The notes below the pieces were generated by a model, which saw only the letters and a list, made by a program, of their open reading frames with translations, made no database searches and was not told the origin of the DNA. Made by a program: the position numbers and the translations under genes. This document shows, piece after piece, positions 7,830 to 52,665 of a stretch of DNA of 64,000 nt. The stretch is from Bacteroidales bacterium (GTDB lineage Bacteria > Bacteroidota > Bacteroidia > Bacteroidales > Prolixibacteraceae): assembly GCA_012729335.1 (NCBI GenBank), contig JAAYDJ010000028.1:1-64000 (forward strand). Reading direction: 5' to 3'. Every line of letters begins with the position of its first letter. Position 1 is the stretch's first letter.

Positions 7830-7840
7830 AAAAAAACATT

Positions 7841-7965: not shown

Positions 7966-8209
7966 AATCTCGCTTTGTGGCTGCAATAATAACAATAAAT
8001 TATCAGTCGGGAAACAAAAAGGGTAATAAAATGAAACCCGGCCGATTACTTTTCGATCATTGTGACGGAATATCGGCCAATTGCTTTCAACTGACACTAT
8101 TCGTTTAAAAATGCATACAAATGGGATCTAACCGGGAAAATCCGGCGGGTCACATTAATTTTAATCCATGACAAGACCCTTAGGTAGAATCATTAAAAAA
8201 CAGAAGATC

Positions 8210-9875: not shown

Positions 9876-9952
9876 CCGTTGCCGCAACCCTTTCCTCCGC
9901 GCCATGCACGAGAGGAAACTCCCCACCGGAATTCAGGCTCCCCTGGTGCCTT

Positions 9953-10651: not shown

Positions 10652-10801
10652 TTATTATCGACTGATTCAAAAAAAGTGCCGTTCCTCCATTTCACGGCCT
10701 GCCTTGATGAAAAACGGAAAACATGCCGGCAAATTTTATGCGGATCAGAAAATTTCATCTGCCCGCCAGGATGGATTTAGCAGGAAGTGTGGACAGCTTT
10801 T

Positions 10802-11632: not shown

Positions 11633-11735
11633 TTCCTGCCGTACTGCCCAAAATTACACTTTTCAGTCCGAATGTTTCCACTTTCCGGCTTTATCCTAAC
11701 CCCTATTTTCTTATTTTTGGAAAAACAAACATATC

Positions 11736-13055
11736 ATGATCATGAGTGACAGGAGAACATTTCTGAAGAATACGGCGCTGGCTACGGCAGGATTGGCGGC
11801 TTTTCCCACCATTGTCAGGGGAAGCGGTGTGGCGGCAAACGACAAGATAACGGTCGGGTTGATCGGATGCAAGGGACAAGGGTGGAGTAACCTCCAGGCG
11901 TTCCTTAAACAACCCGGAGTGGAGTGTGCCGCCCTCTGTGATGTCGACCGGAATGTCCTCATGGAGAGGGCCGCCGGGGTCGAAAAAATCACGGGGAAAA
12001 AACCCGCGCTTTACGGCGACTTCCGGAAGCTTCTGGAACAGAAGGATATCGATGCGGTTATCGTGGCCACGCCCGACCATTGGCACTGCATACCGATGGT
12101 CAACGCCTGTGAAGTTGGGAAGGATGTGTTTTGCGAGAAGCCCCTGGCCAACACCATTGAAGAGTGCAATGTGATGGTCAATGCCACGCAAAGGTACAAC
12201 AGGGTGGTCCAGGTCAACCAGTGGCAGCGGAGCGATCCCCACTGGAAGGATGCCGTGGAGTATGTCCACAGCGGCACCCTGGGGCGTGTGCGCTCGGTCC
12301 GTGCCTGGTCATACGTGGGCTGGAAGGGTTCTATCCCTGTGGTGCCCGACACACCGGTTCCCGAGGGAGTCGATTACGACATGTGGCTGGGGCCCGCTCC
12401 CAAACGCCCCTTTAACCAGAACAGGTTTCACTTCACCTTCCGCTGGTACTGGGATTACGCCGGCGGACTCATGACCGACTGGGGGGTGCACCTGCTCGAC
12501 TATGCCCTTTTCGGCATGAACCAGTATGTTCCCAAATCGGTGATGGCCACCGGCGGGAAATACGCCTACCCCGACGATGCCATGGAAACCCCCGACACCC
12601 TGATGGCCATGTATGACTTCGGGGATTTCGGGTTGCTGTGGGACCATACCATCGGTATTTATGGCGCCAACTACGGCAGGGGCCACGGCGTGGCTTTCAT
12701 CGGCGAATACGGTACCCTTGTGGTCGACCGCTCCGGCTGGGAAGTCCTCCCGGAAACCAGCAGCGTCAGCGCCAATAAAGATTTTGTGAAGGTTCCCCTG
12801 CAAAAATCGACAGGGCAGGGGCTGGAGCTTCATGTGAAGAATTTCCTGGAATGCATGAAAACCCGGGAGAAGCCCACCTGCGATATTGAAACCGGGGCCC
12901 ATATTGCCCGGATCGCCCACCTCGGGAACATCTCCTACCGTTTGGGGCGCAAGGTTTTCTGGGACCACGACCAGCAGAGGTTCATTAAAGACAAGAAAGC
13001 CGATGAGCTGGTGAAGGCACACTACCGGAAACCGTGGACCCTTCCCCGGGTATGA
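11736..13055 (+). CDS. Gfo/Idh/MocA family oxidoreductase with Tat-like signal
   Basis: 439 aa; SDRRTFLKNTALATAGLAAFP, VGLIGCKGQG, ATPDHWHCIPMVNACEVGKDVFCEKPL. Confidence 0.93.
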   Translation: MIMSDRRTFLKNTALATAGLAAFPTIVRGSGVAANDKITVGLIGCKGQGWSNLQAFLKQPGVECAALCDVDRNVLMERAAGVEKITGKKPALYGDFRKLLEQKDIDAVIVATPDHWHCIPMVNACEVGKDVFCEKPLANTIEECNVMVNATQRYNRVVQVNQWQRSDPHWKDAVEYVHSGTLGRVRSVRAWSYVGWKGSIPVVPDTPVPEGVDYDMWLGPAPKRPFNQNRFHFTFRWYWDYAGGLMTDWGVHLLDYALFGMNQYVPKSVMATGGKYAYPDDAMETPDTLMAMYDFGDFGLLWDHTIGIYGANYGRGHGVAFIGEYGTLVVDRSGWEVLPETSSVSANKDFVKVPLQKSTGQGLELHVKNFLECMKTREKPTCDIETGAHIARIAHLGNISYRLGRKVFWDHDQQRFIKDKKADELVKAHYRKPWTLPRV

Positions 13056-14155
13056 AGCAGATTCTGAAATACGCGGGCTATGTGTTGGCCGTGGCGGCCT
13101 TCGGATACATGGTATGGCGGTTTTCTTACATGATTGCCTGGATCCTGGCGGCGGCCGTCCTCTCCTTTGTGGGCCATCCCCTGGTGCACTTCTTCGACAG
13201 TCTCCGTATCCGCAAGCTGAAAATTCCCCATGCCGTGAGCGCTTTGCTCTCCCTGGGCCTCATCCTGCTGGTGATGCTGGGGCTCCTGGCCATTTTTGTG
13301 CCCCTGATCCTCAACCAGGCCAACACCATCGCCCAGATCGACATTAACCGGCTGGCGGCTAACCTTCAGGGCCCCCTCCAGTGGATTGACGAGCAACTCC
13401 ACGCCATGGGGGCCATTCCCGACGGGTTGACCATGCAACAGTTCCTGGTCCAGAAAGCCAAATCGGTCGTAAACCTGGGCAACGTCTCCGGGCTCCTTAA
13501 CAACATCTTCAGCGTGGCCGGAAATGCCTTCGTAGGCATCTTCTCCATCTTCTTCATCGCTTTCTTTTTCCTCAAGGATGAAAGCATGTTCGAGGAGATC
13601 CTCCTGCTTGTGGTTCCCGAAAAACACCACAAGGCCACCCTGCAGGTGGTTGCCGACTCCAAAAACCTGCTGATGCGCTATTTTGTGGGGATCATGGGGG
13701 AAATCCTGGGCGTTATGGGGCTGATTACTCTGGGACTATATCTCTTCGGCATAAAGAACGCCTTGCTGATCGGGTTCTTCGGGGCCATCATGAACATTAT
13801 TCCCTACCTGGGGCCGGTGATCGGGACGCTCATCGGGGTTACCCTGGGGATAACGGCCACCCTGGCGGGCGGAGCCTTCGACCAGCTCCTTCCCATTGTG
13901 CTTAAGATACTGGGAGTTTTCCTGGTGGCCAACTTCATCGACAACAACATCCTGATCCCGGTCATCTATTCGAAAAGCGTGAAATCACACCCGCTGGAGA
14001 TCTATTTTGTGATCATCATCGGGGGGAGCCTGGCCGGATTGCCGGGAATGATCCTGGCCGTTCCGGTGTATACCGTGTTGCGTGTGATCGCCAAAGAGTT
14101 TTTCCAGAATTTCAGGATCGTTAAAAAACTCACAGCGGCGATGAAAGAAGAGTAA
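13052..14155 (+). CDS. AI-2E family transporter
   Basis: Polytopic membrane protein; ATGA overlap with the preceding gene; NIIPYLGPVIGTLIG and DNNILIPVIYSKSVKSHPLEIYFVIIIGGSLAGLPGMILAVPVYTVLR. Confidence 0.92.
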   Translation: MKQILKYAGYVLAVAAFGYMVWRFSYMIAWILAAAVLSFVGHPLVHFFDSLRIRKLKIPHAVSALLSLGLILLVMLGLLAIFVPLILNQANTIAQIDINRLAANLQGPLQWIDEQLHAMGAIPDGLTMQQFLVQKAKSVVNLGNVSGLLNNIFSVAGNAFVGIFSIFFIAFFFLKDESMFEEILLLVVPEKHHKATLQVVADSKNLLMRYFVGIMGEILGVMGLITLGLYLFGIKNALLIGFFGAIMNIIPYLGPVIGTLIGVTLGITATLAGGAFDQLLPIVLKILGVFLVANFIDNNILIPVIYSKSVKSHPLEIYFVIIIGGSLAGLPGMILAVPVYTVLRVIAKEFFQNFRIVKKLTAAMKEE

Positions 14156-14279
14156 ACGGGCCCTCACCCAGCCCCGGGGCAGCCAAAAAAGTATTGGATT
14201 ATAAAAAAGGCAGCAGCTCCAGAACAACTATATTCTCATATTCTGACCTTCTAAACTCTGACCTTCTGAAATTCCTGCA

Positions 14280-15113
14280 CTACCAGGATCCTCCGGCGCC
14301 GCCGCCACCGAAGCTTCCGCCACCGAATCCGCCAAAACCGCCGCCCCCGCCGAAGCCTCCTCCGCCTCCGAATCCTCCGCCAAAGCCCCCGCGGCCTGAG
14401 GAGAAATCGGACCAGGAGCCGCCGCGTCTGCCGGCATTCATGGCTCCCAGCCAAATCCAGAAGGGCAGGTTTCGGCTTCCCGTATTGAAGGATTTTTTAT
14501 TGCCCCCCTTCATCATGGCGATGACCAGCAGGATGATGATCAGGAGCACGATGACCGATCCGGTGCCAGTCCCTGTTTGGTCCTCGCCGCCGGTATACTG
14601 TTGGGCGGTAAACTCACCCCGGGCCAGGCCCATGATCACCCTGGTGCCGGCTTTGATCCCCCCGAAATAATCCTCCTCACGGAAGCGGGGGATCATTTCC
14701 TGGTCGATGATCCGGCCATTGGCCACGGCATCAGGGATCACCCCCTCGAGGCCATAGCCCACCGAAATGTATACTTCACCCCTTTCCGAAGGGGTTTTGG
14801 GCTTCACCAGAACCACAATCCCGTTGTTTTTACCCTGACGGCCCACGCCCCACGATTCGCCGATCCGGTAAGCCATATCTGCGGGGTCATACCCCCCGAG
14901 ATCGGGAAGGATGACCACGGCCACCTGGGTGGAGGTCTCCTGATCAAAGCGAACCAGTGAATCTTCGAGTTCCTGTGCCTGGGCGGGCGTGAGGATCCCG
15001 GCCAGGTCATTGACCAGGCGGGGAGGCACCGGCCGCTCCGGTACTTTGGCCAGCGCAGCCAAAGGCAGCAACAGGGCAAGCCATACCAGGTATTGTGTCC
15101 AGCTTCTGTTCAT
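14280..15113 (-). CDS. TPM domain protein (YgcG family) with Gly-rich C-terminus
   Basis: 277 aa; VNDLAGILTPAQAQELEDSL..., TM segment, C-terminal GGFGGGGG tail. Confidence 0.9.
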   Translation of the reverse strand: MNRSWTQYLVWLALLLPLAALAKVPERPVPPRLVNDLAGILTPAQAQELEDSLVRFDQETSTQVAVVILPDLGGYDPADMAYRIGESWGVGRQGKNNGIVVLVKPKTPSERGEVYISVGYGLEGVIPDAVANGRIIDQEMIPRFREEDYFGGIKAGTRVIMGLARGEFTAQQYTGGEDQTGTGTGSVIVLLIIILLVIAMMKGGNKKSFNTGSRNLPFWIWLGAMNAGRRGGSWSDFSSGRGGFGGGFGGGGGFGGGGGFGGFGGGSFGGGGAGGSW

Positions 15114-15116
15114 CGT

Positions 15117-15560
15117 CTATTCTTTATCTCCGTAGGAAATCTCATTGGTGAGCTCATTCACGTCATCGGCACGGCGGGGAAAATGGTCACTCAGCTGCTC
15201 CCCGGCCATCCTGATTCCCTCCATCAGTCCTTCCGTGATCTTCTCCTGCCGGAAATGATCCAGGACCACAGAACGGATCTGGTTCCAGAAATCTTCAGGA
15301 ACCACTGCGTTGATGCCGGCGTCGCCGATGACCACGAATTTGTGATCGCCGACAGCCACGTAAAAGAGCACCCCATTGCGTTCACGGGTTTTGTGCATCT
15401 CCAGATGCGTGAAGATATCGACCGCCCGGTCAAAGAGATTCTTCTTGCAGTGTTCTTCGATGTGCACCCTGATCTCGCCCGAGGTCTCCATCTCTGCCAC
15501 CTCGATGGCCCGTCTGATTCCGGCTTTCTTCTCCTCCGTGAACGATTCCCAGAAGTTCAT
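15117..15560 (-). CDS. TPM domain protein
   Basis: 147 aa; ETSGEIRVHIEEHC, TRERNGVLFYVAVGDHKFVVIGDAGINAVV. Confidence 0.88.
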   Translation of the reverse strand: MNFWESFTEEKKAGIRRAIEVAEMETSGEIRVHIEEHCKKNLFDRAVDIFTHLEMHKTRERNGVLFYVAVGDHKFVVIGDAGINAVVPEDFWNQIRSVVLDHFRQEKITEGLMEGIRMAGEQLSDHFPRRADDVNELTNEISYGDKE

Positions 15561-29745: not shown

Positions 29746-30894
29746 TTATTCTATGCCGCCTCTGCGGATGGTCACGCGGATGGCGTTTTCGACGGGTTTG
29801 GGGGAGACCAGGACCAGGTAGCCTCCGCCTCCGGCGCCTGAGATTTTCCATCCCAGTGCATTCTTCTCATAGCGGCGGATGGTTTCCAGGATGACGGGGT
29901 TGACCATTCCGGGGAACATGCTCACCTGGGCTTCGAATGATTCGCGGAAGGCCAGTCCGAACCGGGGCAAATCTCTTTGGAGGAGGGCTTTCCAGACGGC
30001 TTCTGCGGCCAGGGCCAGGGCACGGGCGCCCGCCTCGTGGATTTTAGTGCCGGCCAGGACGTCATAGTCCCCGGCACGAGGCGAGAGGTTGATGAACCAC
30101 AGGTTCTCCTCGATGAAGGAGAGGATTTCCGGATCGGTAACCGTGGTGATATTTTCCGGCCAATAGCTGCCACGGGGGTAGTCGAGACGGTTAACGCCCG
30201 GGAATACAATTCCGATGGAATCCTGCGATCCGCTGACGTAGCCCGAGCCAGGTGGATTTTCGACGCAGAAAAGGGTGTGGGCCAGTTTTTCGCGGTGGCC
30301 ATCAGGGATATCATTGTGCCAGAGTTCCATGGCTTTAATGCGGGTGCTGCTGGCCATGCCGCTGCGGTCATTGAATTCAATTTCCGGCTCTATGGAGATG
30401 GTGATCACCGGTCCGGGCCAGTATTTGGAGACATAGGGCTGGTCGAGCCATCCCCCGGCCAGGTCGAGGCGGAAGGGGATGCGGCACTCATTGCGCAGGG
30501 CGGTGGTTGAACGGGCAGGCAAGCCGCCACGGGGAATCCGTCTGCTCACCACCAGTATAATGCCCAGTTCATCACATAAACGCTGCTTCGAGGGGGTGAA
30601 GCCATCTTCATTGACGAAGAAGATATCGGGTTTCAAAGTCCTGAGTTCCTTTTCAAAGTCAAGGTGTCCCGAACCGCTGTTGATCCAGGCGTCCTTCACC
30701 ACCCTGAGGGCTTTAACCATATAAAGGCGCTCCTGCTCGGCGTTGATGGTCCTGCGGGCTTTCAGCTCCGCGATGGTGCGGTCGGAACCCAGTCCCACGT
30801 AAAGATCCCCGTGGGAGGCCGCCTCTTCAAAGAAAGCGACATGCCCGCTGTGGAGCATGTCATAACAACCGCTGACAAATACTTTTTTCTTCAT
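29746..30894 (-). CDS. fused cytidylyltransferase-like nucleotidyltransferase / GHMP kinase
   Basis: 382 aa; N-terminal VFVSGCYDMLHSGHVAFFEEAA (HxGH) domain, C-terminal GHMP fold RIPFRLDLAGGWLDQP ... WKISGAGGGGYLVL. Confidence 0.85.
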   Translation of the reverse strand: MKKKVFVSGCYDMLHSGHVAFFEEAASHGDLYVGLGSDRTIAELKARRTINAEQERLYMVKALRVVKDAWINSGSGHLDFEKELRTLKPDIFFVNEDGFTPSKQRLCDELGIILVVSRRIPRGGLPARSTTALRNECRIPFRLDLAGGWLDQPYVSKYWPGPVITISIEPEIEFNDRSGMASSTRIKAMELWHNDIPDGHREKLAHTLFCVENPPGSGYVSGSQDSIGIVFPGVNRLDYPRGSYWPENITTVTDPEILSFIEENLWFINLSPRAGDYDVLAGTKIHEAGARALALAAEAVWKALLQRDLPRFGLAFRESFEAQVSMFPGMVNPVILETIRRYEKNALGWKISGAGGGGYLVLVSPKPVENAIRVTIRRGGIE

Positions 30895-34709: not shown

Positions 34710-35462
34710 TTATATTCGTTTTTTGATGGCATTAAACGCGTAGCAACTGAAATAATAAAGCGATTCCACAAAGCTGAATTTCTCAGTCCTGCGGTAAGAT
34801 TTCCAAATGAGTATTGCCCATTTCATTTTATTGGAAGAGATGGAATTTTTCTGAACCCGGTATTGCACTAAAACCTCATCAAGTCCATACATGGTGTAAC
34901 CTTTCCGGAATACATCCTTCCAGAATTGGTTGTCGTCGGCCACTGGGAACGGCCTGAATTGAATGCCGTCAAGAAGGTTTTTGTACAAAACAGAGGAAGA
35001 AAAACCAATGTTGGTATTACGCAGAAATTTCTTGTAATTCTGGATGGGAAGACAATGGATCACCTTATTCTTAGGGGTTCCGGTTTCGTCGATCAGTTCG
35101 TAAGAAGTACAGGAAAGCAGGGCATTTTTCTTTTCCATGAACGTCAATTGACGTTCCAGTTTTTCAGGCATCCAGATATCGTCACTATCGAGGAAGGCAA
35201 TCAGTTCACCCTTTGCAGAAGCGATTCCCAGGTTTCTCGGAGCAGATGGTCCACCTGAGTTCTTTTCCATTTTAATAAGCTTAATTCTGGGGTCATCCCT
35301 TACAAAAGAAGAAATAATACCGACTGATTGATCTGTAGAACAATCATCCACCACGATCGCCTCCCACTGGGTATAGCTCTGGCGAATGAGTGAATTCAGG
35401 GTTTCCCTGATTTTCTCCCCTGCATTGTAACAGGGGATAATGATGGATACGCTCCGGTTCAT
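34710..35462 (-). CDS. family 2 glycosyltransferase
   Basis: 250 aa; SIIIPCYNAGEKIRETLNSLIRQSYTQWEAIVVDDCSTD. Confidence 0.94.
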   Translation of the reverse strand: MNRSVSIIIPCYNAGEKIRETLNSLIRQSYTQWEAIVVDDCSTDQSVGIISSFVRDDPRIKLIKMEKNSGGPSAPRNLGIASAKGELIAFLDSDDIWMPEKLERQLTFMEKKNALLSCTSYELIDETGTPKNKVIHCLPIQNYKKFLRNTNIGFSSSVLYKNLLDGIQFRPFPVADDNQFWKDVFRKGYTMYGLDEVLVQYRVQKNSISSNKMKWAILIWKSYRRTEKFSFVESLYYFSCYAFNAIKKRI

Positions 35463-35477
35463 AGGAATGATTTACTT

Positions 35478-36431
35478 TTATTCTGTGTAATAAATATCCA
35501 TACAGGGCTGGCAAATGGTGTTGTGGTATTCCCCCCTGATCATCTCATCCCTGAAGGCCATGTAATTTTTGCCGTTCCATATCTCCACGAGGGAGGCATC
35601 TTTCACATTCCCCATTTTGTTTTCAGCGTTGTAATCGCGGCAACAGGCGACCACATCTCCATTCCACTGAACCACCACATACTGCCAGGCAAACGGACAC
35701 GGCATAAAGGGGGGATACTTGTCGTATTCACCCAGTTCTACCATTTTCTTTTCCCCCCAGGGGAAAAAACGACGAATTTCCACGTCGATTCCATTTTCTT
35801 GCCAGAAACTCCGGAACGATTCCTTCATATGGGCATTCAGATTCATGGAAATCATCCTGACCAACAGTTTTGTGGAACTGTTGAGCGCTTTAATAATCAC
35901 TGACAGCTGAACGATATTTTCGATGGCCTGGTTGTAATCGATTTTTCTGCCTCTGATTTTCTGGAAACTCTCTGCGTCATATCCATCAAGTGAAACGACG
36001 ATTTTCCCGGCATTTCCCCTGACCAGTAATTCAGCCAAATGACCGGTCAGTTCAATGGCGTTCACAGAAAGCATGGTATTTAGTCCGCAGGCAGCGGCAT
36101 AGGCATTCATTTCGGCAAATAGCGGATGGAGCAATGATTCCCCGAAATGGAACAATTCGATTTCCTTTCTTTTGATCTCCTCAGGGAATGTCGCCACTTC
36201 ATCCATGACCTTTTGGAACAGTTCCATCTTCATAAACCCGACGGGGCGTTTCATCTCTTTTCCGCGTGGACACATGATGCAATTGTAGGGACAGGCATTG
36301 GTAGGTTCTATCTGATGAAGGTGCGGGTAAGGTGAGCGCTTCATTTCGAAGAGTTTCCCCCATCCGTCACGGCTGTTCAGAAACGAGGGCAGCTTTTGTC
36401 CGCAAAGGTTTTTCCTGGCTGTATCACCCAT
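35478..36431 (-). CDS. radical SAM protein with SPASM domain
   Basis: 317 aa; IEPTNACPYNCIMCPRG (CxxxCxxC), C-terminal CPFAWQYVVVQWNGDVVACCRDYNAENKMGNVKDASLVEIWNG...CQPC. Confidence 0.93.
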   Translation of the reverse strand: MGDTARKNLCGQKLPSFLNSRDGWGKLFEMKRSPYPHLHQIEPTNACPYNCIMCPRGKEMKRPVGFMKMELFQKVMDEVATFPEEIKRKEIELFHFGESLLHPLFAEMNAYAAACGLNTMLSVNAIELTGHLAELLVRGNAGKIVVSLDGYDAESFQKIRGRKIDYNQAIENIVQLSVIIKALNSSTKLLVRMISMNLNAHMKESFRSFWQENGIDVEIRRFFPWGEKKMVELGEYDKYPPFMPCPFAWQYVVVQWNGDVVACCRDYNAENKMGNVKDASLVEIWNGKNYMAFRDEMIRGEYHNTICQPCMDIYYTE

Positions 36432-36436
36432 GAAAA

Positions 36437-36577
36437 TCAGAAATTAATGTAAACAAACGCCCCCTCACTATAACCCGAGAAGATAAAGATGATGACCAAA
36501 AGAAAGGCAAACCACAAGGCAGTGATCAGTCCAGCGAGCCACGGACGGAAATATCGGCAAAAAAAGCGGTAAGTCAT
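36437..36577 (-). CDS. small single-TM protein (DUF5989-like) in the MBOAT operon
   Basis: 46 aa, absent from the ORF track: MTYRFFCRYFRPWLAGLITALWFAFLLVIIFIFSGYSEGAFVYINF*; start overlaps the MBOAT stop, ends 5 bp before the radical SAM start. Confidence 0.7.
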   Translation of the reverse strand: MTYRFFCRYFRPWLAGLITALWFAFLLVIIFIFSGYSEGAFVYINF

Positions 36578-37683
36578 CGGAACATGTTAAGAATAAAGTT
36601 ATTCACCAGGGTGGTTACCGGGAAGCTCAGAATAACGAATGCCAGAGTTACAGCAACGCTAACCACTTTTCCCATGGTGAGGAAGATTCTATTTCGCGGG
36701 AACAGACCTTTGGTTACCCTGGAATATTTCTCAAAAGCAGTAATTCCCATGGCGTGGTATACACCCCATAAAATATAGCGGAGACTCAGCTCATGCCAGA
36801 TACCGATGGTGATCATGGTGGCCCCGATAGCGATGAAGGGTCTCCGGGTGATGGCGGCCACCGGAATAAAAATATACTCCCGGCACCAGTGGGTCAGCGA
36901 CATATGCCAACGGTTCCAGAATTCCCTGATATTGGTGGCCAGGTAGGGATAATTAAAATTCTCCGGCACATTGAAACCTGCCATGGCCGCAACCCCGATG
37001 GCAATGCTGCTATAGGCCGAAAACCGTATATAAAGGTCAAGCCACAGGTAAACTGACTGGATCACCAAAGGTCCAAACCCCTCACTGGCCGTCAAACTGC
37101 CTGCGAGCCAGTTTTTAAGCAAGTAATTTACCCCGTAATTTCCCAGCACCACCAATTGGGCATATCCGTATACCATGCGCTCCAATCCGCCCGAAAACCG
37201 GCTGTTATCCCATTTTCTCCTCCTGAGGTTTTGCAGGAAGTCAGGGAACAGGTTGATCGGTCCAGCCAGGTAGGTGGGGAAAAAAGTCATAAAAGCCAGG
37301 AATTCGATCAGGGAGTGCTCCCTGAGTCGCCCCCTGTACCCTTCCTGCACGTAATGGATCAATCGGAATGTGAAATAGGATATCCCCAGAGGCAGGATCA
37401 GCGATCCCGCCAATGCCAGGTATTTGAACAGCAGAAAGGCTCCGAAAACAAGGGCCACAGTTGACAAAGCCACAACACCTTGCTTTAATTTCCTGATTCG
37501 TACAACATAATAACTGAGGAGGGATTCCAATAGCAAAAAAGCAGCAGCCAAGGGCGACATGTAATAGACAAAGGTTCCTCCAAAAAGCACCAGGATATAT
37601 GGACTGTACTTGAGGGCAGTTATCCGGGAAACCAACAGAAACAGGAATACCCAGGAGAGAAAAGCAAGGGAGACAAAACTCAT
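36574..37683 (-). CDS. MBOAT family O-acyltransferase (DltB-like)
   Basis: 369 aa polytopic; FMTFFPTYLAGPI, FWNRWHMSLTHWCREYIFIPV, GIWHELSLRYILWGVYHA. Confidence 0.92.
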   Translation of the reverse strand: MSFVSLAFLSWVFLFLLVSRITALKYSPYILVLFGGTFVYYMSPLAAAFLLLESLLSYYVVRIRKLKQGVVALSTVALVFGAFLLFKYLALAGSLILPLGISYFTFRLIHYVQEGYRGRLREHSLIEFLAFMTFFPTYLAGPINLFPDFLQNLRRRKWDNSRFSGGLERMVYGYAQLVVLGNYGVNYLLKNWLAGSLTASEGFGPLVIQSVYLWLDLYIRFSAYSSIAIGVAAMAGFNVPENFNYPYLATNIREFWNRWHMSLTHWCREYIFIPVAAITRRPFIAIGATMITIGIWHELSLRYILWGVYHAMGITAFEKYSRVTKGLFPRNRIFLTMGKVVSVAVTLAFVILSFPVTTLVNNFILNMFR

Positions 37684-38600
37684 TTGGATTCGAGTATTAT
37701 TTGCCTGGATTTCAGCTCTCTCAACAACCAGTCCACATAATAAAAACTGCCTGCTCTGTTGAGATGTGCCCGATCGTGGTAGAACTCCACATAACCGAGT
37801 TCCTCAGGAAAATCAAGGTAAGAAATGCCGTATGCGTTGTTAAACAGGTCGATCAAAGCCTTGTATTGCTGTTTTAGTTCAGGGGGGAGGTGTTTCTCTG
37901 CCTCCCGGGAACGGGGGATTTCCAGCAGGAAAATATGAATGCCCAAACTATCGGCATCTTTAAAGAACCGGACCCATTCCGGAAAGTCATTGATTTTTCT
38001 GACGGTTAAGACCTGACCTCTCAGTTCCAGATTCCGTTCATCAATGAAATCAAAATCGAGTTTTGTTTTAAATTTGTTTGAAAAGGGTTCAGGCACGTTA
38101 CGGTCGAGCAGTTCCAGGGCACCCCCTTTCATTTTGGTCAGATAGACAGGAATCCTGGCCAGGCGGGTCCTGAACCGGGAGAGTGCATATTGCCAGGCCT
38201 TCCGGGAGTTTCCCTGGTAATTAAGGGTGGCCACATTTGACTCAATAAAAAGATGTTTTGGCCTGAGGGCCTTGATCTCACCAAGACAAGAGTTGAAGGC
38301 CGAAAGGTTGGTCCCCATGCCGGTGACGACCTTATAATGAAATACATTTCCCGCCAGCAGGGAGTCCATCGTTTGGTATTCTAACAGGGCATACCGGGTC
38401 AGGGAGGATCCCAGGAAATAGGCCTCTATGGAATCTTTCGGGGCACTTGCTTTTTGAATCACCCGGGGTCTTAAAGCCCCCACCTTCTGATCCCTGACTT
38501 TATAGATCTGCCAGATCCCCGCAAGTATCCCCAAAGCCAGGGAAAAGGCCACTACCCATATTTTCAGGGGCATTCCCGGGGAATCGGCCGGCCGTTTCAT
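37680..38600 (-). CDS. SGNH-like / DltD-like membrane-anchored protein
   Basis: 306 aa; N-terminal TM; FLGSSLTRYAL near the N-terminus and HDRAHLNRAG near the C-terminus, consistent with SGNH Ser and Asp-His; 4-bp overlap with MBOAT. Confidence 0.7.
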   Translation of the reverse strand: MKRPADSPGMPLKIWVVAFSLALGILAGIWQIYKVRDQKVGALRPRVIQKASAPKDSIEAYFLGSSLTRYALLEYQTMDSLLAGNVFHYKVVTGMGTNLSAFNSCLGEIKALRPKHLFIESNVATLNYQGNSRKAWQYALSRFRTRLARIPVYLTKMKGGALELLDRNVPEPFSNKFKTKLDFDFIDERNLELRGQVLTVRKINDFPEWVRFFKDADSLGIHIFLLEIPRSREAEKHLPPELKQQYKALIDLFNNAYGISYLDFPEELGYVEFYHDRAHLNRAGSFYYVDWLLRELKSRQIILESK

Positions 38601-38700
38601 GTGTTTAAATTATTACGTTTACATGGTTGAACTTGTGAAACACATGTAATATCCATGTGGTTAATTATCGCGGTTGGAGCATAAATGATGCATGGATATT

Positions 38701-40536
38701 TCATCTTAGGGTCTTATTTTCGACCACGGCCAGGAGGTCCGACAACTTATTAATGTTCATCACCTCGACGGGAGAAATTTCAATCTGGAATATTTTCTCC
38801 ATTTCCGCGATTAAAAAGAGGTGGGAAATGGAATCCCACTCCGGAGTGTCTTCAGCGGCCAAATCGAGGCTCAGTGATTCTGCAGGCATTTGCAGGATTC
38901 TGGAGACAGCAGCCATAAAATCGTTCTCCTTGTGATTTGTCCCTGATTCAGACACAAGGTGCCCGGCCACCATTCTCCGGACTTCATTTATGATGACTTT
39001 TCCAGAGCGTCCATAAGGAAGGTCTTCTACAAAAAAGATATTCTTGGGCACCTTATTCTCCTCCAGGTGTTTGCGACAGTGGGCCACAATTTCCTCACGG
39101 CTTAGGGCCTGGTTTTCCCTAACCACAATGGCTGAGGCTACAATTTCGCCCCATAAGGGGTCCTCAACGCCAAAGGTGACCGCTTCTTTCACTGCACGAT
39201 GGGCGTGTAACACCTCGGTGATCTCCTCCGGACTCACATTGATCCCCCCCGTTATAATGACCAGCTTTTTCCTTCCGGTAATCCGGAAACATCCATCTTC
39301 GCCCACATAACCCAAGTCCCCGGTTTTAAACCAATCACCTGACCAGGCCGCCTTATTGGCTTCCGGAGACTCCAGATAACCGTTCATCAGCAGACTTCCC
39401 CGGAGCCAGATTTCACCCACTTCACCCACCTTTTTCTCTTTAAGGTCCTCCCCGACAATCCTGGCCTCACAATCAACAGGCTTCCCAATGGTGCCGATCA
39501 CATGCGATTCTGCATCAGGTCCGGCGAATAATCCGCCCGCCACTGTTTCCGTAAGGCCATACCCATTAATAATCATGGCCTTAAACTTCTCCTCGAATTG
39601 CTGCCACAGCAGAGCTTCCAGCTTTCCTCCGCAGGATATGACAAACTGAAAAGATCCATTATTCAGTGTATCCGTATCGTTCTGTTTAAACTGGTAAACC
39701 AGTCCGGTCATTGTGGGGACCATCACCCAATGGGTGATCTTTTCGCGGTAAATAACATCGAAACTGTCTTCGATCCGCTGGATGGTGAAGGGAAAAGGCC
39801 GGAATAACGTAGCGGAATTTACCAAAGCCAACAGCGGACCCTGTACCATGCCATCGGAATGTGACAGCATGAGGTTATTAAAAATCCGTGCGTTGCTGTT
39901 TAATTGATATACCTTGGAAAGCGTCTCTAAATGGGAAAACAGAGCCCGATGGGAGATTCTGACCCCCTTGGGAGCAGAGGTTGTACCCGAAGTAAACAAG
40001 ATATAGGCATCGGTTAGAGGATCGATTTCCTCAGGGAGGTCTGATGCCGGTAAAAGGTCAATGCACGCCGGGAAAGTGGAAGACTCCTGCCGTTTCCTGT
40101 TGAGTAATTTTTGCAGCAAACCATTCTCCGGTCCGTGGTGAATAGAGGTTACCTCCCTGAAGTCATTACTTTCCAGGTTCCATGCTTCCCCGATTTCCTG
40201 ATCGGCAAAAATGAACCGGGCCTTACAGTGGTTAATAATGGCATTTGCCCGGTCAGCGCCCGACTCCGGATCGAGAAAGACTGCAGTGATACCATTGGCG
40301 ATCAGGGAGATATAAAAAAGACATACAAAACGCTCATTTGCTGAAGAAAAAAGGACCTGGTCACCCTGCAAAATGCCTCTCTGCCGGAAATAAGTGGTAT
40401 ACCTTGCTATTGTGGATTGCAATTCCGGATAAGTCAACAACTGATCCCCAAAAACGATAAACTTTCCCTTCCGGAGGAAAGCCTTTTTAAAAATAGCCGG
40501 TACGGTGCTCTTTAATATATCCATTGAGTTTCTCAT
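38701..40536 (-). CDS. AMP-forming acyl/aminoacyl ligase fused to a C-terminal carrier-protein domain
   Basis: 611 aa; ILFTSGTTSAPKGVRISH, GYGLTETVAG, KTGDLGYVGEDGCFRITGRKK; C-terminal EWDSISHLFLIAEMEKIFQIEI (phosphopantetheine Ser in DSISH). Confidence 0.9.
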   Translation of the reverse strand: MRNSMDILKSTVPAIFKKAFLRKGKFIVFGDQLLTYPELQSTIARYTTYFRQRGILQGDQVLFSSANERFVCLFYISLIANGITAVFLDPESGADRANAIINHCKARFIFADQEIGEAWNLESNDFREVTSIHHGPENGLLQKLLNRKRQESSTFPACIDLLPASDLPEEIDPLTDAYILFTSGTTSAPKGVRISHRALFSHLETLSKVYQLNSNARIFNNLMLSHSDGMVQGPLLALVNSATLFRPFPFTIQRIEDSFDVIYREKITHWVMVPTMTGLVYQFKQNDTDTLNNGSFQFVISCGGKLEALLWQQFEEKFKAMIINGYGLTETVAGGLFAGPDAESHVIGTIGKPVDCEARIVGEDLKEKKVGEVGEIWLRGSLLMNGYLESPEANKAAWSGDWFKTGDLGYVGEDGCFRITGRKKLVIITGGINVSPEEITEVLHAHRAVKEAVTFGVEDPLWGEIVASAIVVRENQALSREEIVAHCRKHLEENKVPKNIFFVEDLPYGRSGKVIINEVRRMVAGHLVSESGTNHKENDFMAAVSRILQMPAESLSLDLAAEDTPEWDSISHLFLIAEMEKIFQIEISPVEVMNINKLSDLLAVVENKTLR

Positions 40537-42109
40537 TTAGAAGTTGGCGCTGGATTTTGCCTGCGGTACTCCGGGGGAGCTGTTCTTCAAGGTAGTAACA
40601 CCAGGGCATCCGGTTTTTACCCACCTTTTGAGCCATATATCCCCTGATGTCGTTGATAATTTGTTGACCATCCTTTCCGGCGCAGTCTTTACAGACCACA
40701 AAGGCGACGATCTTCTCATCCTCTTCGAGACGTGCGTAGGGACAGGTGGCAGCCTCCAGAACGGATGGATGGGATTCAAGGGCGTTTTCGATCTCCTCGA
40801 GATAAATGAGTTCGGAGTGTATATTTTTAACGATATTTCTCTTTCGGCCTAAAAGTTCAAAGCAACCGTCTGTTCTCTGGCGTACTATATCGCCGGTATA
40901 GAAACAGCCATTTTTCAATACCCGGGAAGTCTCTTCTTCTCGTTTGTAGTAACCGCTCATCAGGTTTTCACTTTTAACAAGTAATTCGCCTGTCCCCTCT
41001 TCATCGTCGGATTCCGCACTGGGAAAAACGATCAGTTCAGCTCCCGAAGCGGGCCCGATGCTGTTGTCCTCAGGGTCAAAGGTATCCAGGGTATGTCCCG
41101 AACAGATGCCGGCCGTCTCTGTTAATCCGTAATAATTCAGGACTGGAATCCCGTAGTTTTCCCAAAATAAACGAAGTTGTTCCTTAGTTAAGGGTCCGCC
41201 GGTACACATCACTGCTTTCAGGGAGGAGGTCTTGCTTTTCCGTGATTCGGAACAGAGTATATTCATTTGCCTGATCACAGTTGGCGCTACCCCCAGGTAG
41301 GTGATTCCCAAAGCCTGGATGAGTTCCAGGGAGAGAAGTATGTTATTCCGTTCTTCAGGTGAAGCGATCACAAAGGAAGCGCCGGCATGCAGCGGGGCAA
41401 AGCAGGTGTTGCGCAATCCGCTCATAGAATGAAGGTCGCCCAGGTTCATAAAAAGATCACCGGGTTCCCACCTGAAATGGGTGGCAATAAGATGACCGCT
41501 GTTAAAGAGTGCCTGCTGCGACAACATCACCCCTTTGGGGAGGCCTGTGGAACCGGAAGTATAGAGGATCACAGCCAGGTCATTCGGAGAAACCATTTCC
41601 TCTGAAGTAGATGCGTCGAGCCCCTGAACCATAACTTCAGCTTCTTTTCCTTCAGGGTCAACCGGAGAAAGCCATTCCAGGAAAAGAGGAGCCAAAAGAT
41701 ACTCCTGTTGGGATCCCGCCAGAAGGAGCATGCCGTCGTAATCCATTCCGGCAAGACCGTTTACCCGAGATGCATCGGTCAGTACGATTTTGGGAGCGGT
41801 TTCTTTCAAAATGAATTGCAGCAATTCAAGGGGCCAGTTGTGGTCAACAGGGACAAAAACAACCCCATTATAGAGGCATGCCCAGCAGAGGATGACCGAT
41901 TCCAGGGACAAAGGAGTATAGGTGAGAATGATATCCCCTTTCCCGATACCCTGTTGCCTAAGTTGAGCTGAAGCCAGTTGAACCAGCTGATAACCCTCGG
42001 TATAGCTTAATACCTGATTACCTGATGTTTCCACCGCCAAGCGCCGGTCGCGGTGCTCTGTAAAGCATCGTTCAGCCAGCGCCCGAAATGTTTTCTCCTT
42101 CATGGACAA
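40487..42109 (-). CDS. AMP-forming acyl/aminoacyl ligase
   Basis: 540 aa; AVILYTSGSTGLPKGVMLS, NYYGLTETAG, FYTGDIVRQRTDGCFELLGRKRNIVK, STAGKIQRQ. Confidence 0.92.
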   Translation of the reverse strand: MSMKEKTFRALAERCFTEHRDRRLAVETSGNQVLSYTEGYQLVQLASAQLRQQGIGKGDIILTYTPLSLESVILCWACLYNGVVFVPVDHNWPLELLQFILKETAPKIVLTDASRVNGLAGMDYDGMLLLAGSQQEYLLAPLFLEWLSPVDPEGKEAEVMVQGLDASTSEEMVSPNDLAVILYTSGSTGLPKGVMLSQQALFNSGHLIATHFRWEPGDLFMNLGDLHSMSGLRNTCFAPLHAGASFVIASPEERNNILLSLELIQALGITYLGVAPTVIRQMNILCSESRKSKTSSLKAVMCTGGPLTKEQLRLFWENYGIPVLNYYGLTETAGICSGHTLDTFDPEDNSIGPASGAELIVFPSAESDDEEGTGELLVKSENLMSGYYKREEETSRVLKNGCFYTGDIVRQRTDGCFELLGRKRNIVKNIHSELIYLEEIENALESHPSVLEAATCPYARLEEDEKIVAFVVCKDCAGKDGQQIINDIRGYMAQKVGKNRMPWCYYLEEQLPRSTAGKIQRQLLNEKLNGYIKEHRTGYF

Positions 42110-44616: not shown

Positions 44617-45594
44617 TTAGGAATAAAGAGTTACCTTATTCAGTGATCTTTTGGGAGGCAAAACAATTCTTTCGCCTAATTCTAACAAATACTCAGAGGT
44701 CATTGACTTTGTTCTACCCCCATAGGATGTAAAAGTCATTTCTCCAATATAGGGTTTGTTGTTGACTTCATAAAAATCAATCCTCACTTGAGGAAATCCT
44801 TTAGATAATACCTTGCAGGCAGAAATCATTTCATCCAGAGTAACTGGCTTTGGGATCCTCTTTGCTTGTTTATATCTTCCCTTATAAACCAGATTCTCTG
44901 AAATATCAGTCCAATTCATATCAAAAAGAGACACGCCTAAACTATTGTCTGTACGATCTGAGCAAACAAAAACATTGAATGGTTCACCATTAAAACACCA
45001 AATCTTGTAGTCAATCAAAGTCTTGCTATAATCCTTATTCTTTTCCTCCAGGAATTTCTCAGCAATGATTCGTGGCTTTATGGGTAAATAATGAAATTCA
45101 CCTGAGAGAATAGCCTTCCTGGGCCATTTTGACATCTGGTTAGCCAATTCTCTGCGCATATATTCAAAATCAATCTTATTTTTATCAGGGACCACAAGAA
45201 CAATCCCTGAAGCATTGGTAGGCTTTAAGACAAATGATTCTGGCAGTTTATTGAAATCAATATCATTTACAGACTCAAAAACACCATATAATGGAACTAG
45301 CATATTTTCAAAACCACATTCTGCAACGTAATCCCGAACCTTATGCTTATCCGCTAATTCAGTCCACCGGGAGGTGTCAGAATACAATTTTAACCAATTG
45401 ATTTTTTCATTGAGGTTTTTCGGATTTTCCAGATCAAGGGGTATCCCAAGTCTTCTGAAATAGATCTTTTCTGTAAGCTTTCTGGGGTTATTTAGTAAAA
45501 GATAACGGGAATAAAGAAACCGCCATTCATCTCTGAGAAGCGCAAAAGGAAAAGTGATTGGCCGAAGCCTTTTCATGAATTCTATTCTGTTCAT
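44617..45594 (-). CDS. TupA-like ATP-grasp protein
   Basis: 325 aa; NLNEKINWLKLYSDTSRWTELADKHKVRDYV, ESFVLKPTNASGIVLVV, DFYEVNNKPYIGEMTFTSYGG. Confidence 0.85.
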   Translation of the reverse strand: MNRIEFMKRLRPITFPFALLRDEWRFLYSRYLLLNNPRKLTEKIYFRRLGIPLDLENPKNLNEKINWLKLYSDTSRWTELADKHKVRDYVAECGFENMLVPLYGVFESVNDIDFNKLPESFVLKPTNASGIVLVVPDKNKIDFEYMRRELANQMSKWPRKAILSGEFHYLPIKPRIIAEKFLEEKNKDYSKTLIDYKIWCFNGEPFNVFVCSDRTDNSLGVSLFDMNWTDISENLVYKGRYKQAKRIPKPVTLDEMISACKVLSKGFPQVRIDFYEVNNKPYIGEMTFTSYGGRTKSMTSEYLLELGERIVLPPKRSLNKVTLYS

Positions 45595-46834: not shown

Positions 46835-47968
46835 CTACCCAGCCTGGTTCTTAAACAGAATGGCCCTGAGTATGGCCCATCTGTGACTTTCACATCGAAG
46901 ATTATTGATGATATGCACTGGTTTACTTTTCTTTCTTCTTAAGAGCACACCCATAAGCTTTTTTAAACAACGATATTTTAATGATGGAAGGAAATGATAC
47001 CCGCTTAACGAAAAGCTGGATTGATATTTGGGAAGCAATTCTGCACAGTGTTGGTTCACCCTTTCTATATACACCCTATCATCCTGTAGAATTTGGTTCA
47101 ATTCTGCAATATGCATCTTTAGCTCAACATCATGGCTTAATATCAAACGAGCCCCATCAAAATGAATATTGTGTACATCATAATACATGCCTGATGCTGA
47201 ATTCTGAGAAATTGTAAATACAACACTCAGACTATCATTCCATCCTGGCCGAACAGCCTGTGGATTGCTTTTTTGAAAACAGAAATTCCCCAGGCTATAG
47301 AAAATGGGACTACCTTTATAAACTTCCCAGCCTTGAACAACATGGGGATGGGATCCCACAACCGCATCAGCTCCAAGATCAACAAAACCTTTATAGACAT
47401 CGCGCCATTCAGGAAGGGGCATATCAAAAAACTCTATTCCTCCATGTGCAATTACAAACAAATAATCAACTTCCCTTTTCCCTTTCACAATAACTGAAGG
47501 TATGTCAGGATGACAGATCCATGCTGCCCCTGTATGGTTTTCCAAATCATACTGATCAGTCAGAGTTCCGAATTCACAATGAGTTAATGACAAAAATCCT
47601 ATCTTAACACTTTCAATTTCAATGACTTTTATTCTATATGCTTCCTCCCAATTCCCGGCACCCAACAATACTGAATTCTTGAATAACTCAATGGTTTTCA
47701 CATATCCCTCCACGCCATAATCCATGATATGGTTATTAGCGAGTGAAATCACATTAAAACCATGTGTTTCCAGCCATACTGGCGTTTCTTCGCTTTGAAA
47801 CAGGGTGGGTCCAGTTTTGCTAATGGGTTTTCCCTGGTTTCTGACAGGAGCTTCGAAATTGACAACGTTTAGAGTAGCATCCTGTAACAAATCAGATATC
47901 TCCGTGCTTAAACTGATTTGATCAACATCATCTATCTTACAATCCCCCCAGAATGATATTTTTAACAT
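46835..47968 (-). CDS. CapA family protein (PGA_cap metallophosphatase-like fold)
   Basis: 377 aa; FWGDCKID, VVNFEAPVRNQGKPISKTGP, NVISLANNHIMDYG, DAVVGSHPHVVQGWEVYKGSPIFYSLGNF. Confidence 0.92.
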   Translation of the reverse strand: MLKISFWGDCKIDDVDQISLSTEISDLLQDATLNVVNFEAPVRNQGKPISKTGPTLFQSEETPVWLETHGFNVISLANNHIMDYGVEGYVKTIELFKNSVLLGAGNWEEAYRIKVIEIESVKIGFLSLTHCEFGTLTDQYDLENHTGAAWICHPDIPSVIVKGKREVDYLFVIAHGGIEFFDMPLPEWRDVYKGFVDLGADAVVGSHPHVVQGWEVYKGSPIFYSLGNFCFQKSNPQAVRPGWNDSLSVVFTISQNSASGMYYDVHNIHFDGARLILSHDVELKMHIAELNQILQDDRVYIERVNQHCAELLPKYQSSFSLSGYHFLPSLKYRCLKKLMGVLLRRKKSKPVHIINNLRCESHRWAILRAILFKNQAG

Positions 47969-49857: not shown

Positions 49858-49897
49858 CTTAGTCTCTTAGTCTCTTAGTCTCTTAGTCTCTTAGTCT
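49858..49897. repeat. 8-bp tandem repeat (CTTAGTCT x5)
   Basis: Perfect units at 49858, 49866, 49874, 49882 and 49890. Confidence 0.97.
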
Positions 49898-52665
49898 CAT
49901 TTTATCCCTCCCGGGGGTGGGAATTGCGGCCGGGTCTCCATCTGCTTACAGAACCGGTTGTAATTCGTGGTGCCGTCCTTGTCCCCCTTCTCCATGGCCT
50001 CCCGGAAGTACCTGCAGGCCTCCTCCTTATTCCCCATACTGTATGCATTGACTCCCAAGAGGTTCAAAAGGTTGGGACGTACCAATCCCTGTTCCAGAAG
50101 ATACTGAAGATCTTCGTTGCTTTTTTTGTAATCGCGCAGGTTGTAATAGCTGAACGCCCTGTATTCCCTGGCTTCGAGGTAATCGGGTTTTTGTGCCAGG
50201 ATATCGCTGAAAAGACGTATGGCCTCCTGGTGCCTTTTCCCGCGGAAGGCTTCCAGGGCCTGGTCAAAGTTCTCCTTGTAGAGGGAGATCACCACTTTGC
50301 GGTCGATATAGGTTTTCTGCCTGCGCACCACCGAATCGCGGGGAAAATGCTCAAAGGCGGTATTGGCCACCTCAGAAGCCTTATCCAGCTTGCCAATCCG
50401 GTCATAAAATCCCGGGGCAAACTTCAGGGCATCAGGATCCAGGGGATGCCGCTCCAGATATCCGGCTACCATCTCCTCCGCTTCCCCTCCTCTTTCCTGC
50501 TGAATCAGGTTATTGGCCATTACACTGATATTCCTGAAATTGTTTGGTTTTATCTCGTAGACTTTCTGCGAATAGTAAAGAGAACTGTCGGGCATCTTCA
50601 GTTCATTATAAGCCATGGACAGAAAATACTCGGGCCGGCTGTCCCACGGACTTGATTTATCTTTTTTCAGAAGGTCGATGGCCTCCCGGTAGCGTTTTTC
50701 ATTCAGCAGGAAACGGGCTTTTTGCACGGCAATGGGTTCTGCTTCTCCATTCAGGTTGGGAATGGACGGAAAACCCACCAGGAATTTATCTGCCGGCGAG
50801 GTCAGCTTCTTGCGCATGATCTCCTGCTTGACGATCCGCTGCAGTTTCAGCGACTGAAAATTCTGGACCAGCACCCAGGTGGCAGCCATCTGCACCAAAA
50901 CGAAAAAACCAAGGGTGAAGTACCGCATTGCCGGGGACACAGAAATCCCCTCACCCGGAACGCTATCCTTTCCCTGCAGAAGCCTGCCCAACCATGGAGC
51001 CCGCAAGGCCAGGACCTCAGCATCAGCGTCCTCCTCCCCCCTGTTGTTTTTCCCGGCCAGAAACAGGCTGGTCAGGGCAATCCCGGTTCCGGCAATCAGG
51101 GCAAACAAAGACTGGATCTCGGGCCGGTCATGGGGAAAGTTGAAAAAGGCATCGAAACTGTAGGCAAAAAGACCCAAGGCCGGCAGGAACAGCAATTCCA
51201 CAGTCAACGGGGTGCCTTTCTTCAAAAAAAGGAAAAGGAACTTCCCGAAGAGCAACAGAAAAATGGAGAGGAAAAGCAACCCTCCGAAAATCCCTGTTTC
51301 CGCCGGAATCTCAATAAAATCGTTGTGTACTTTATACTGGTAAATATAATCTTTGCTGGTCTGGTTCTCGATTTTCAGGATGGCCACTTTCCAGTTGCCT
51401 GCGCCGACCCCCAGCAGAGGACTCTCGCGAATCAGCTGAAAGGAGCGTTTCCAGGCGGTAAGACGCTTGTTGGCAGAATCTTCCTCCCCGCTGATGGTCG
51501 ACAACCGTCCGGCCACACTGGTTTTGCTCCTCATCTTCGTCTCACCCCCCTTGCTTTGCCGGGAACCGCTCTCCCTCGTCCTTTCTGTGGCCCGACCGAC
51601 ACCTCCTTCCAGCGCCGAAGAAGACCCTTCCAGGTGGCTACTCCCCGAAAGTGCGGAATCTCCTTCAGGAACACCCCCGGAAGCATCGGAAGTATCCTGC
51701 TCCTGAACTTCGCCGGAAACGCCATCTTCAGAAACCGGAGGATTCACCGGGGCAGCCGTATCGTCACTCCTCTCCTGTACTACAGGGGCAGGAGTTCGCT
51801 GAGCCGGTTTGGGATACCAGTTCGATTCTACAAAGGAGAAGGTTCCCAGGGCGACCAGTAAAAAACCCACCAGCCACACACCATCCCACAAATATCGCTT
51901 TTCTCTTTTCTGGAGGAAACCAATCCCCTGGTAGGCCAAAAGCACCAGCACCAATGCAAACACCCCCAGGTAAAAAGCACGGGCACTCATGAAAAAGACG
52001 GCCAAAATGGCCAGGGGGATGGCCGTCATCCCCAACACCCGCCACCCCTTCTGCCGGAAAAGCATCAGCCACACGGCAAAGGGAATCTTGATAAACAAGG
52101 CGGCAGCCAGGATATTCTTGTTCGAATAACCCGACTTCACTTTCAGGATATGCCGGAAGGTCCCCTCTTCAATCATCTCCTGGATATCACTATACACCAG
52201 GATACTTTCGTAGATCAGCAGCAAGGTCATGGCCCCGGAGAGATACAGGAGGCCCCTGCGTTCCGCCATCACCAGCACCGACACCAGATAGGTCGCAGAA
52301 AATATCGTGAATGCCTTGCTGAAGTATAGCACCGACTCGGTCACATTCACCGACTTGACAAAAGAGAGCAAACTGACCACCATCAACAAGGTATAGGCCA
52401 CTCCCATGGCATTCCCGAAGAAGCCAAAATACCAGCCCTGACGGGTTTTCACATCTTTCCGCGAAAACAGAAAGGCAAAGGTCACCAGATTAAGCAGCGC
52501 CAGGGCCAGGAATTTGGGCCCGTTGGAATCATAGGTGTTCATATTGGGTGTGAACACCGTGAGATAACCATACAAAATCAGCAGGACAACGTGGATCAGC
52601 TTTACCGGGTCTTTGGGGACCTCTTTCACGGCATGATGTCCCTTTTTGGGTACAGATCGGGCCAT
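49897..52665 (-). CDS. O-antigen ligase/polymerase-family protein with TPR C-terminus
   Basis: 922 aa; multi-TM, SPLLGVGAGNWKVAI...YKVHNDFIEIPAETGIFGGLLF; C-terminal TPR-like repeats. Confidence 0.88.
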   Translation of the reverse strand: MARSVPKKGHHAVKEVPKDPVKLIHVVLLILYGYLTVFTPNMNTYDSNGPKFLALALLNLVTFAFLFSRKDVKTRQGWYFGFFGNAMGVAYTLLMVVSLLSFVKSVNVTESVLYFSKAFTIFSATYLVSVLVMAERRGLLYLSGAMTLLLIYESILVYSDIQEMIEEGTFRHILKVKSGYSNKNILAAALFIKIPFAVWLMLFRQKGWRVLGMTAIPLAILAVFFMSARAFYLGVFALVLVLLAYQGIGFLQKREKRYLWDGVWLVGFLLVALGTFSFVESNWYPKPAQRTPAPVVQERSDDTAAPVNPPVSEDGVSGEVQEQDTSDASGGVPEGDSALSGSSHLEGSSSALEGGVGRATERTRESGSRQSKGGETKMRSKTSVAGRLSTISGEEDSANKRLTAWKRSFQLIRESPLLGVGAGNWKVAILKIENQTSKDYIYQYKVHNDFIEIPAETGIFGGLLFLSIFLLLFGKFLFLFLKKGTPLTVELLFLPALGLFAYSFDAFFNFPHDRPEIQSLFALIAGTGIALTSLFLAGKNNRGEEDADAEVLALRAPWLGRLLQGKDSVPGEGISVSPAMRYFTLGFFVLVQMAATWVLVQNFQSLKLQRIVKQEIMRKKLTSPADKFLVGFPSIPNLNGEAEPIAVQKARFLLNEKRYREAIDLLKKDKSSPWDSRPEYFLSMAYNELKMPDSSLYYSQKVYEIKPNNFRNISVMANNLIQQERGGEAEEMVAGYLERHPLDPDALKFAPGFYDRIGKLDKASEVANTAFEHFPRDSVVRRQKTYIDRKVVISLYKENFDQALEAFRGKRHQEAIRLFSDILAQKPDYLEAREYRAFSYYNLRDYKKSNEDLQYLLEQGLVRPNLLNLLGVNAYSMGNKEEACRYFREAMEKGDKDGTTNYNRFCKQMETRPQFPPPGGIK

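Follow-up and report, generated by a model that had tools for sequence, protein, structure and literature searches.

We analysed a window of 64,000 nucleotides from a Bacteroidales bacterium of the family Prolixibacteraceae (assembly GCA_012729335.1, contig JAAYDJ010000028.1, positions 1–64,000), in which a compact run of genes, a cassette and a GT2 gene 3' of it, occupies positions 34710–42109 among the glycosyltransferases of a polysaccharide locus. The cassette encodes two AMP-forming (ANL) ligases, the second fused to a carrier domain that resembles a peptidyl or acyl carrier protein (PCP or ACP), an anchored SGNH-type protein, a membrane-bound O-acyltransferase (MBOAT), a microprotein (X) and a radical SAM enzyme. 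It probably specifies a trans-membrane acyl relay of the Dlt type that is built from parts foreign to Dlt. A sequence-only reading of this DNA had placed seven open reading frames (ORFs) on the minus strand, and all seven are present, with the overlaps that it gave for their junctions (4 nt at 37680/37683 and 36574/36577, 50 nt at 40487/40536). In order of transcription, the features are as follows.

40487–42109, minus strand: ANL1, a stand-alone AMP-forming ligase, 540 aa (Pfam AMP-binding, E 7e-64)
38701–40536, minus strand: ANL2-PCP, an AMP-forming ligase with a C-terminal carrier domain, 611 aa (AMP-binding, E 8e-59)
38701–38946, minus strand: the carrier (PCP/ACP-like) domain of ANL2, motif EWDSISH (WDS conservation and a DltC/ACP profile match)
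37680–38600, minus strand: SGNH-type (DltD-like) putative periplasmic acyltransferase with an N-terminal membrane anchor, 306 aa (motifs and the fold of a relative)
36574–37683, minus strand: MBOAT acyltransferase of DltB size, 369 aa (Pfam MBOAT, E 2e-22)
36437–36577, minus strand: X, a DltX-like candidate acyl-shuttle microprotein, 46 aa, C-terminal FVYINF (motif, topology and a weak Pfam DltX match)
35478–36431, minus strand: SPASM/twitch radical SAM enzyme, 317 aa, accessory (Pfam SPASM, E 6e-16; Radical_SAM, E 7e-12)
34710–35462, minus strand: GT2 glycosyltransferase 3' of the cassette (Pfam Glycos_transf_2, E 3e-39)

ANL1 is listed from a TTG at 42109, and an in-frame ATG two codons downstream is an alternative start.

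A predicted shuttle tail on a separate microprotein

In the Dlt pathway, the tyrosine of the C-terminal FxYxxF motif of DltX is acylated by DltB, the MBOAT, and passes its acyl group on to DltD, the SGNH protein, whereas PatA-type MBOATs carry FxYxxF themselves; this acyl-tyrosine relay has been demonstrated for both Dlt and PatAB (PMC12148441). The ordinary MBOATs among the matches listed in a profile search of genome contigs with an MBOAT alignment formed our comparison set of 79 loci. In 77 of these 79 the protein ends in F.Y..F, and the remaining two are cut off by contig ends. The MBOAT of the window has no such tail of its own. Its shuttle tail sits on the adjoining 46-aa X, and its pair of catalytic histidines, His260 and His297, is invariant in 31 aligned MBOATs.

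X has a single predicted hydrophobic membrane helix, a positively charged N-terminus and the FVYINF tail, a topology that would place the tail in the periplasm. Among 8,597 ORFs of 30–80 aa in the window and the comparison loci, X alone ends in F.Y..F. Its Tyr43 is invariant across seven aligned microproteins, two of which are true DltX proteins (Enterococcus, Listeria). In motif and topology X has the features of DltX, namely one transmembrane helix and a C-terminal FxYxxF, and the Pfam DltX profile matches it at E 0.06 with a score of 13.3, below the cut-off of 25. The sequence-only reading had recorded a 46-aa transmembrane protein, which is present with its one helix, but had overlooked the DltX-like shuttle motif, the strongest single evidence for a Dlt-type system. 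Since X is the sole ORF with this end and the gene set recurs in another phylum, a chance assembly is very unlikely.

Recurrence and rarity of the gene set

The gene set recurs in other genomes, as the sequence-only reading required. ANL2-PCP, the SGNH protein, the MBOAT and X stand together in four loci (the window, L034, L122 and L125), joined by ANL1 in three of them and by the radical SAM enzyme in two. The four genes common to all of these loci thus constitute the core. We class ANL1 and the radical SAM enzyme as accessory: both are absent from the Sulfitobacter locus L125, and no radical SAM gene was found beside the set in L034.

L122, from Pseudomonadota, has the full six-gene set in the same order (identity 37% for ANL2-PCP, 34% for the MBOAT and 50% for the radical SAM enzyme), and its microprotein ends in FIYWDN. 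L034, from another class of Bacteroidota, combines a class-III aminotransferase with ANL1, ANL2-PCP, SGNH protein, MBOAT and a microprotein ending in FRYFGL; the counterpart of ANL1 forms the final part of a 999-aa protein (5380–8379), the first half of which has no Pfam match. Neither in L034 nor in L122 was a GT2 counterpart found adjoining the cassette, and the GT2 gene is probably a component of the host polysaccharide locus, not of the module. L125, on the Sulfitobacter pontiacus plasmid NZ_CP049347.1, holds only the core genes, beside glycosyltransferases. Its 53-aa microprotein (12604–12765) ends in IIYIDLQEAQ, overlaps the stop codon of the MBOAT gene and is missing from the listed annotation. 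The relay proposed below supplies a mechanism for a protein of 46–53 aa that gene callers can miss. In L033, of the same family as L034, all that remains of the set is a truncated MBOAT and a microprotein with the end FRYLGL, next to a putative transposase ORF.

The cassette is rare. Matches above the threshold of the MBOAT profile came from 1 of 393 genomes of the window's order, 2 of 399 Pseudomonadota genomes, 2 of 247 genomes in the phylum of the Desulfocapsa genome (one of the two was inspected) and 1 of 321 in the class of the Pseudomonas genome, where the match is a 577-aa frame. Among the Bacteroidota sampled, no locus other than the window, L033 and L034 scored clearly above the ordinary MBOATs, and the L033 contig was the only close relative among the matches listed in the contig search with the MBOAT alignment.

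Fold and motifs of the SGNH protein

The 306-aa protein has no Pfam match (DltD included) and no meaningful match to PDB sequences, and no counterpart was found in a search against 60 relatives or in viral contigs. Its GSS and DRAHLN motifs contain Ser66, Asp276 and His279, which are invariant in the window protein and three relatives (GxS, DxxH), and a membrane anchor is predicted at about residues 8–33. An SGNH/DltD-like structure had been offered as the test of the sequence-only reading, and an SGNH fold was found, through the L122 relative. The L122 model was built from four input sequences and reaches a predicted local distance difference test (pLDDT) score of ~80 over its C-terminal third. 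GDSL/SGNH-type esterases, thioesterases or lipases make up 16 of its 18 best PDB structure matches; of the remaining matches, one is a designed scaffold and one an enzyme annotated as an alpha/beta hydrolase. Matches with a Foldseek probability of 1.00 include thioesterase I, sialate O-acetylesterase, acetylxylan esterase and GDSL lipases, and the serine and the DxxH motif align. The serine and Asp-His motifs in four proteins and the fold in L122 are those of MBOAT-SGNH acyltransferases.

The proposed acyl relay

The ligase, carrier, MBOAT and SGNH protein on which a Dlt-type logic had been suggested are all identified, and together with X they make a relay of the following kind likely. ANL2 would activate a carboxylic acid that probably bears an amino group, such as an amino acid, and load it onto its own carrier domain. 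By analogy with Dlt and PatAB biochemistry, the MBOAT would take over the carrier-bound acyl group, move it across the membrane and esterify it to Tyr43 in the FVYINF tail of X, and this tail would deliver the group to the active-site serine of the anchored SGNH protein. The SGNH protein may then transfer it to a hydroxyl of a glycan in the periplasm, in this genome most likely the polymer of the Wzy-type locus around the cassette. ANL1 and the radical SAM enzyme, a BtrN-like protein, would be accessory, probably preparing or altering the substituent.

Several observations weigh against this relay. The SGNH protein has no profile link to DltD (probability 2% in a profile comparison) and, by this comparison and the missing Pfam DltD match, falls outside the DltD family. 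The AlphaFold model of the window protein, from two sequences, is poor (pLDDT 39), and the evidence for the fold comes from the L122 counterpart at 26% identity and a mean pLDDT of 57.5. ANL2 is 33% identical to oxalate-CoA ligase and about 20–23% to DltA. Finally, the loci of the window, L125 and L135 (a related module described below) lie among glycosyltransferases, but L122 and L034 lie outside polysaccharide loci, so that for the decoration of the neighbouring polysaccharide we infer rather than observe a role.

The radical SAM enzyme

The radical SAM protein carries a CxxxCxxC motif (CPYNCIMC) and a SPASM/twitch domain, as expected of its family. Weak PADLOC matches behind a viperin-like reading were taken as generic radical SAM similarity. 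The best solved sequence relative is BtrN (E 5e-8), although the match spans the C-terminal half only. In butirosin biosynthesis, BtrN is the dehydrogenase that oxidises an alcohol group of an aminocyclitol, a small aminated ring, and with this enzyme as the best solved relative a small-molecule role is likelier than peptide modification.

A chance neighbour seemed likely from L034 alone, a view that L122 reversed. In the sequence-only reading, ANL1 and the radical SAM enzyme had both been counted in the module; the inclusion of the latter stands through its 50% identical counterpart in L122, but both are accessory rather than core. They might also act outside the relay, on a sugar of the glycan, which we regard as an appreciable though lesser possibility. 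It would fit the lack of both genes in the Sulfitobacter locus and of a radical SAM gene beside the L034 set, the aminocyclitol chemistry of BtrN, and a distant radical SAM relative in a sugar-biosynthesis locus of a Roseibium plasmid. However, the L122 gene lies directly 3' of the cassette in surroundings free of glycosyltransferases, no other gene of the set is as well conserved (50% identity, compared with 34–37%), and only that genome among the 78 of its class has this radical SAM enzyme. These points argue for a part in the relay pathway.

Ligases, carrier domain and cargo

The core ligase is ANL2-PCP, not ANL1. The best PDB sequence match of ANL1, which has counterparts in L034 and L122, is an adenylation domain of a nonribosomal peptide synthetase (NRPS), and its catalytic A10 lysine is present. 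A first hand alignment had made ANL1 an amino-acid ligase, which a multiple alignment overturned: at the amino-binding position ANL1 has Ser, not Asp, and the Asp is in ANL2. The ANL2 relatives in L034, L122 and L125 are 30–37% identical over their full length. Neither ligase is a DltA, as both are 19–23% identical to DltA and neither has an NCBIfam DltA match at E 1e-100, where true DltA proteins score 716–723 bits.

The carrier domain that the sequence-only reading saw on the second ligase is borne out by WDS, invariant in the C-terminal domains of four relatives, and by an hhalign match to a DltC/ACP profile (probability 92%, E 7e-7); its Pfam match is weak and below the cut-off (E 0.007). 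The cassette thus has a DltC-type carrier, but as a fusion to ANL2 and not as a free-standing protein.

The cargo is suggested by one residue. Asp228 (HxDG) is invariant in four ANL2 proteins and aligns with the Asp of DltA and of NRPS adenylation domains, where oxalate-CoA ligase has His. In DltA and NRPS adenylation domains, this Asp holds the alpha-amino group. An amino-bearing substrate is therefore favoured for ANL2, and an amino acid appears the likelier cargo. The same relay could instead carry a plain fatty, hydroxy or dicarboxylic acid, with ANL2 as an acyl-ACP ligase and a glycan O-acyl ester as the product, no amino acid being involved. The best matches of ANL2 are acyl-CoA ligases (NCBIfam PRK06187, and oxalate-CoA ligase in the PDB), and this overall closeness makes a CoA or acyl-ACP ligase for a non-amino acid possible; ANL1, too, is without the amino-binding Asp. 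Yet the conserved Asp228, the aminotransferase that adjoins the L034 set and the amino-acid-type decarboxylase of the L123 module (below) speak against such a cargo, which we consider rather unlikely. With a ligase and a carrier, the possible cargo would widen from acetyl to anything that a ligase can load.

Relationship to acetyltransferases and to Dlt

MBOAT and SGNH pairs are common in polysaccharide loci, and the cassette resembles PatA/PatB, AlgI/AlgJ/AlgX and WssH/WssI in being Gram-negative and in its predicted chemistry, in which an MBOAT and an SGNH protein act by way of an acylated tyrosine of an FxYxxF tail. In those systems the tail is on the MBOAT and the donor is acetyl-CoA (PMC12148441), whereas the cassette encodes a separate tail protein and a carrier-bound donor. 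An ordinary CoA-fed O-acetyltransferase of the PatA/AlgI type, with ligases that serve unrelated metabolism, is accordingly very unlikely: ANL2-PCP adjoins the SGNH protein, MBOAT and X in all four complete loci, and the tail that PatA/AlgI-type MBOATs carry is absent from the MBOAT of the window. A point in its favour is L035 (8817–11021), where a split MBOAT of 372 aa and a 58-aa microprotein with the end FFYSDF accompany an SGNH-like protein, and a ligase or carrier was not found within 20 kb. L035 is possibly a CoA-fed microprotein relay.

With the Gram-positive Dlt system (DltX-A-B-C-D), the cassette shares a ligase, a carrier, an MBOAT of DltB size, an SGNH protein and a one-helix FxYxxF microprotein. 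It differs in that its core ligase is not DltA and is fused to the carrier, that ANL1 and a radical SAM enzyme are added, that the gene order is different, and that its MBOAT and SGNH protein are only distantly related to those of Dlt. Because the host is Gram-negative, no teichoic acid is expected. The best NCBIfam match of the MBOAT is DltB, at 176 bits against a cut-off of 375, and its PDB sequence matches are DltB only. In a tree of the 31 MBOATs, five cassette MBOATs form one clade (100/99) and the DltB proteins another (100/100), the MBOATs of L123 and L135 form a third (99/96), and a fourth (92/97) holds the MBOATs with tails. The tree is limited by long branches, and a topology that joins the cassette MBOATs with DltB is not rejected (approximately unbiased test, p 0.36); all split MBOATs may thus share one origin. 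Since neither ligase is a DltA and the MBOAT forms its own clade, the cassette is probably not a dlt operon by descent. Judged by sequence, it probably works like Dlt but, by its ligases and by DltD, is not a member.

The soft-rot enterobacteria Dickeya and Pectobacterium also have Dlt genes in Gram-negative cells, in operons that presumably contain dltX as well. The available text of the reports describes these genes as homologues of DltA/B/C/D and does not mention a ligase–carrier fusion, a second ligase or a radical SAM enzyme; the comparison is by description only. In Dickeya, dltB is needed for survival of polymyxin (PMC3544676). The least probable of these explanations is that a Gram-negative bacterium has acquired a genuine dlt operon, which would add D-alanine. 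In its favour are the identical component logic, the DltB-only PDB matches of the MBOAT, the DltX-like protein and the dlt genes known from Dickeya and Pectobacterium (PMC5541007; PMC3544676). Against it, neither ligase matches NCBIfam DltA where true DltA exceeds 700 bits, the SGNH protein has no Pfam DltD match, and the MBOAT scores less than half of the DltB cut-off and lies outside the fully supported DltB clade, even if joining the two is not rejected.

Related modules with other MBOATs

Carriers and microproteins also occur with other MBOATs. L123 (Pseudomonadota, 8936–15411) encodes an exosortase A (XrtA)-associated ligase (TIGR03098-like), a decarboxylase dependent on pyridoxal phosphate (TIGR03099-like), a free ACP, a split MBOAT, a sulfotransferase-like protein and a microprotein ending in FRYAGF, with a 374-aa candidate SGNH-like protein (GASS motif) in the SGNH position. 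Here the XrtA-associated TIGR03098/TIGR03099 pair and a free carrier accompany the same three kinds of protein as in the cassette (split MBOAT, SGNH-like protein, microprotein), but the MBOAT belongs to a different clade, and neither an ANL2-PCP fusion nor a radical SAM enzyme is present. This arrangement suggests what these two unassigned XrtA families may do. L135 (Desulfobacterota), in an apparent glycosyltransferase and ABC-exporter locus, encodes an ACP and an ANL ligase together with an MBOAT, an SGNH protein that matches DltD weakly, and a microprotein ending in FRYIGF. Both modules have free carriers and MBOATs of a clade distinct from that of the cassette.

MBOAT/SGNH pathways other than Dlt have been modelled as having neither a carrier protein nor a DltX-like microprotein (PMC12148441). 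The loci described here in Bacteroidota, Pseudomonadota and Desulfobacterota have both, with MBOATs outside the DltB clade, and contradict this generalisation. A broader interpretation, which we offer tentatively and with more doubt than confidence, is a Gram-negative route in which the self-loading ligase-carrier, ANL1 and the BtrN-like radical SAM enzyme would make a non-standard (e.g., oxidised or epimerised) aminoacyl group that a DltX-type relay brings to surface glycans, carrier-fed microprotein relays recurring generally in Gram-negative bacteria and drawing on two or more MBOAT lineages other than DltB. The cassette offers a compact, testable system for how a surface polymer gains unusual groups.

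Neighbouring genes

The GC content is 0.38–0.49 across about 34–50 kb of the window and ~0.54–0.57 in both flanks, which fits the exchange of polysaccharide loci. In the same run of glycosyltransferases are a TupA-like ATP-grasp gene (44617–45594, minus strand) and a CapA/PGA_cap-like gene (46835–47968, minus strand), which may provide a second, amide-type aminoacyl route on the same glycan. A 382-aa protein (29746–30894, minus strand) fuses a cytidylyltransferase-like domain to the C-terminal domain of a GHMP kinase, and a 922-aa protein (49897–52665, minus strand) consists of a Wzy/O-antigen-ligase domain followed by TPR repeats.

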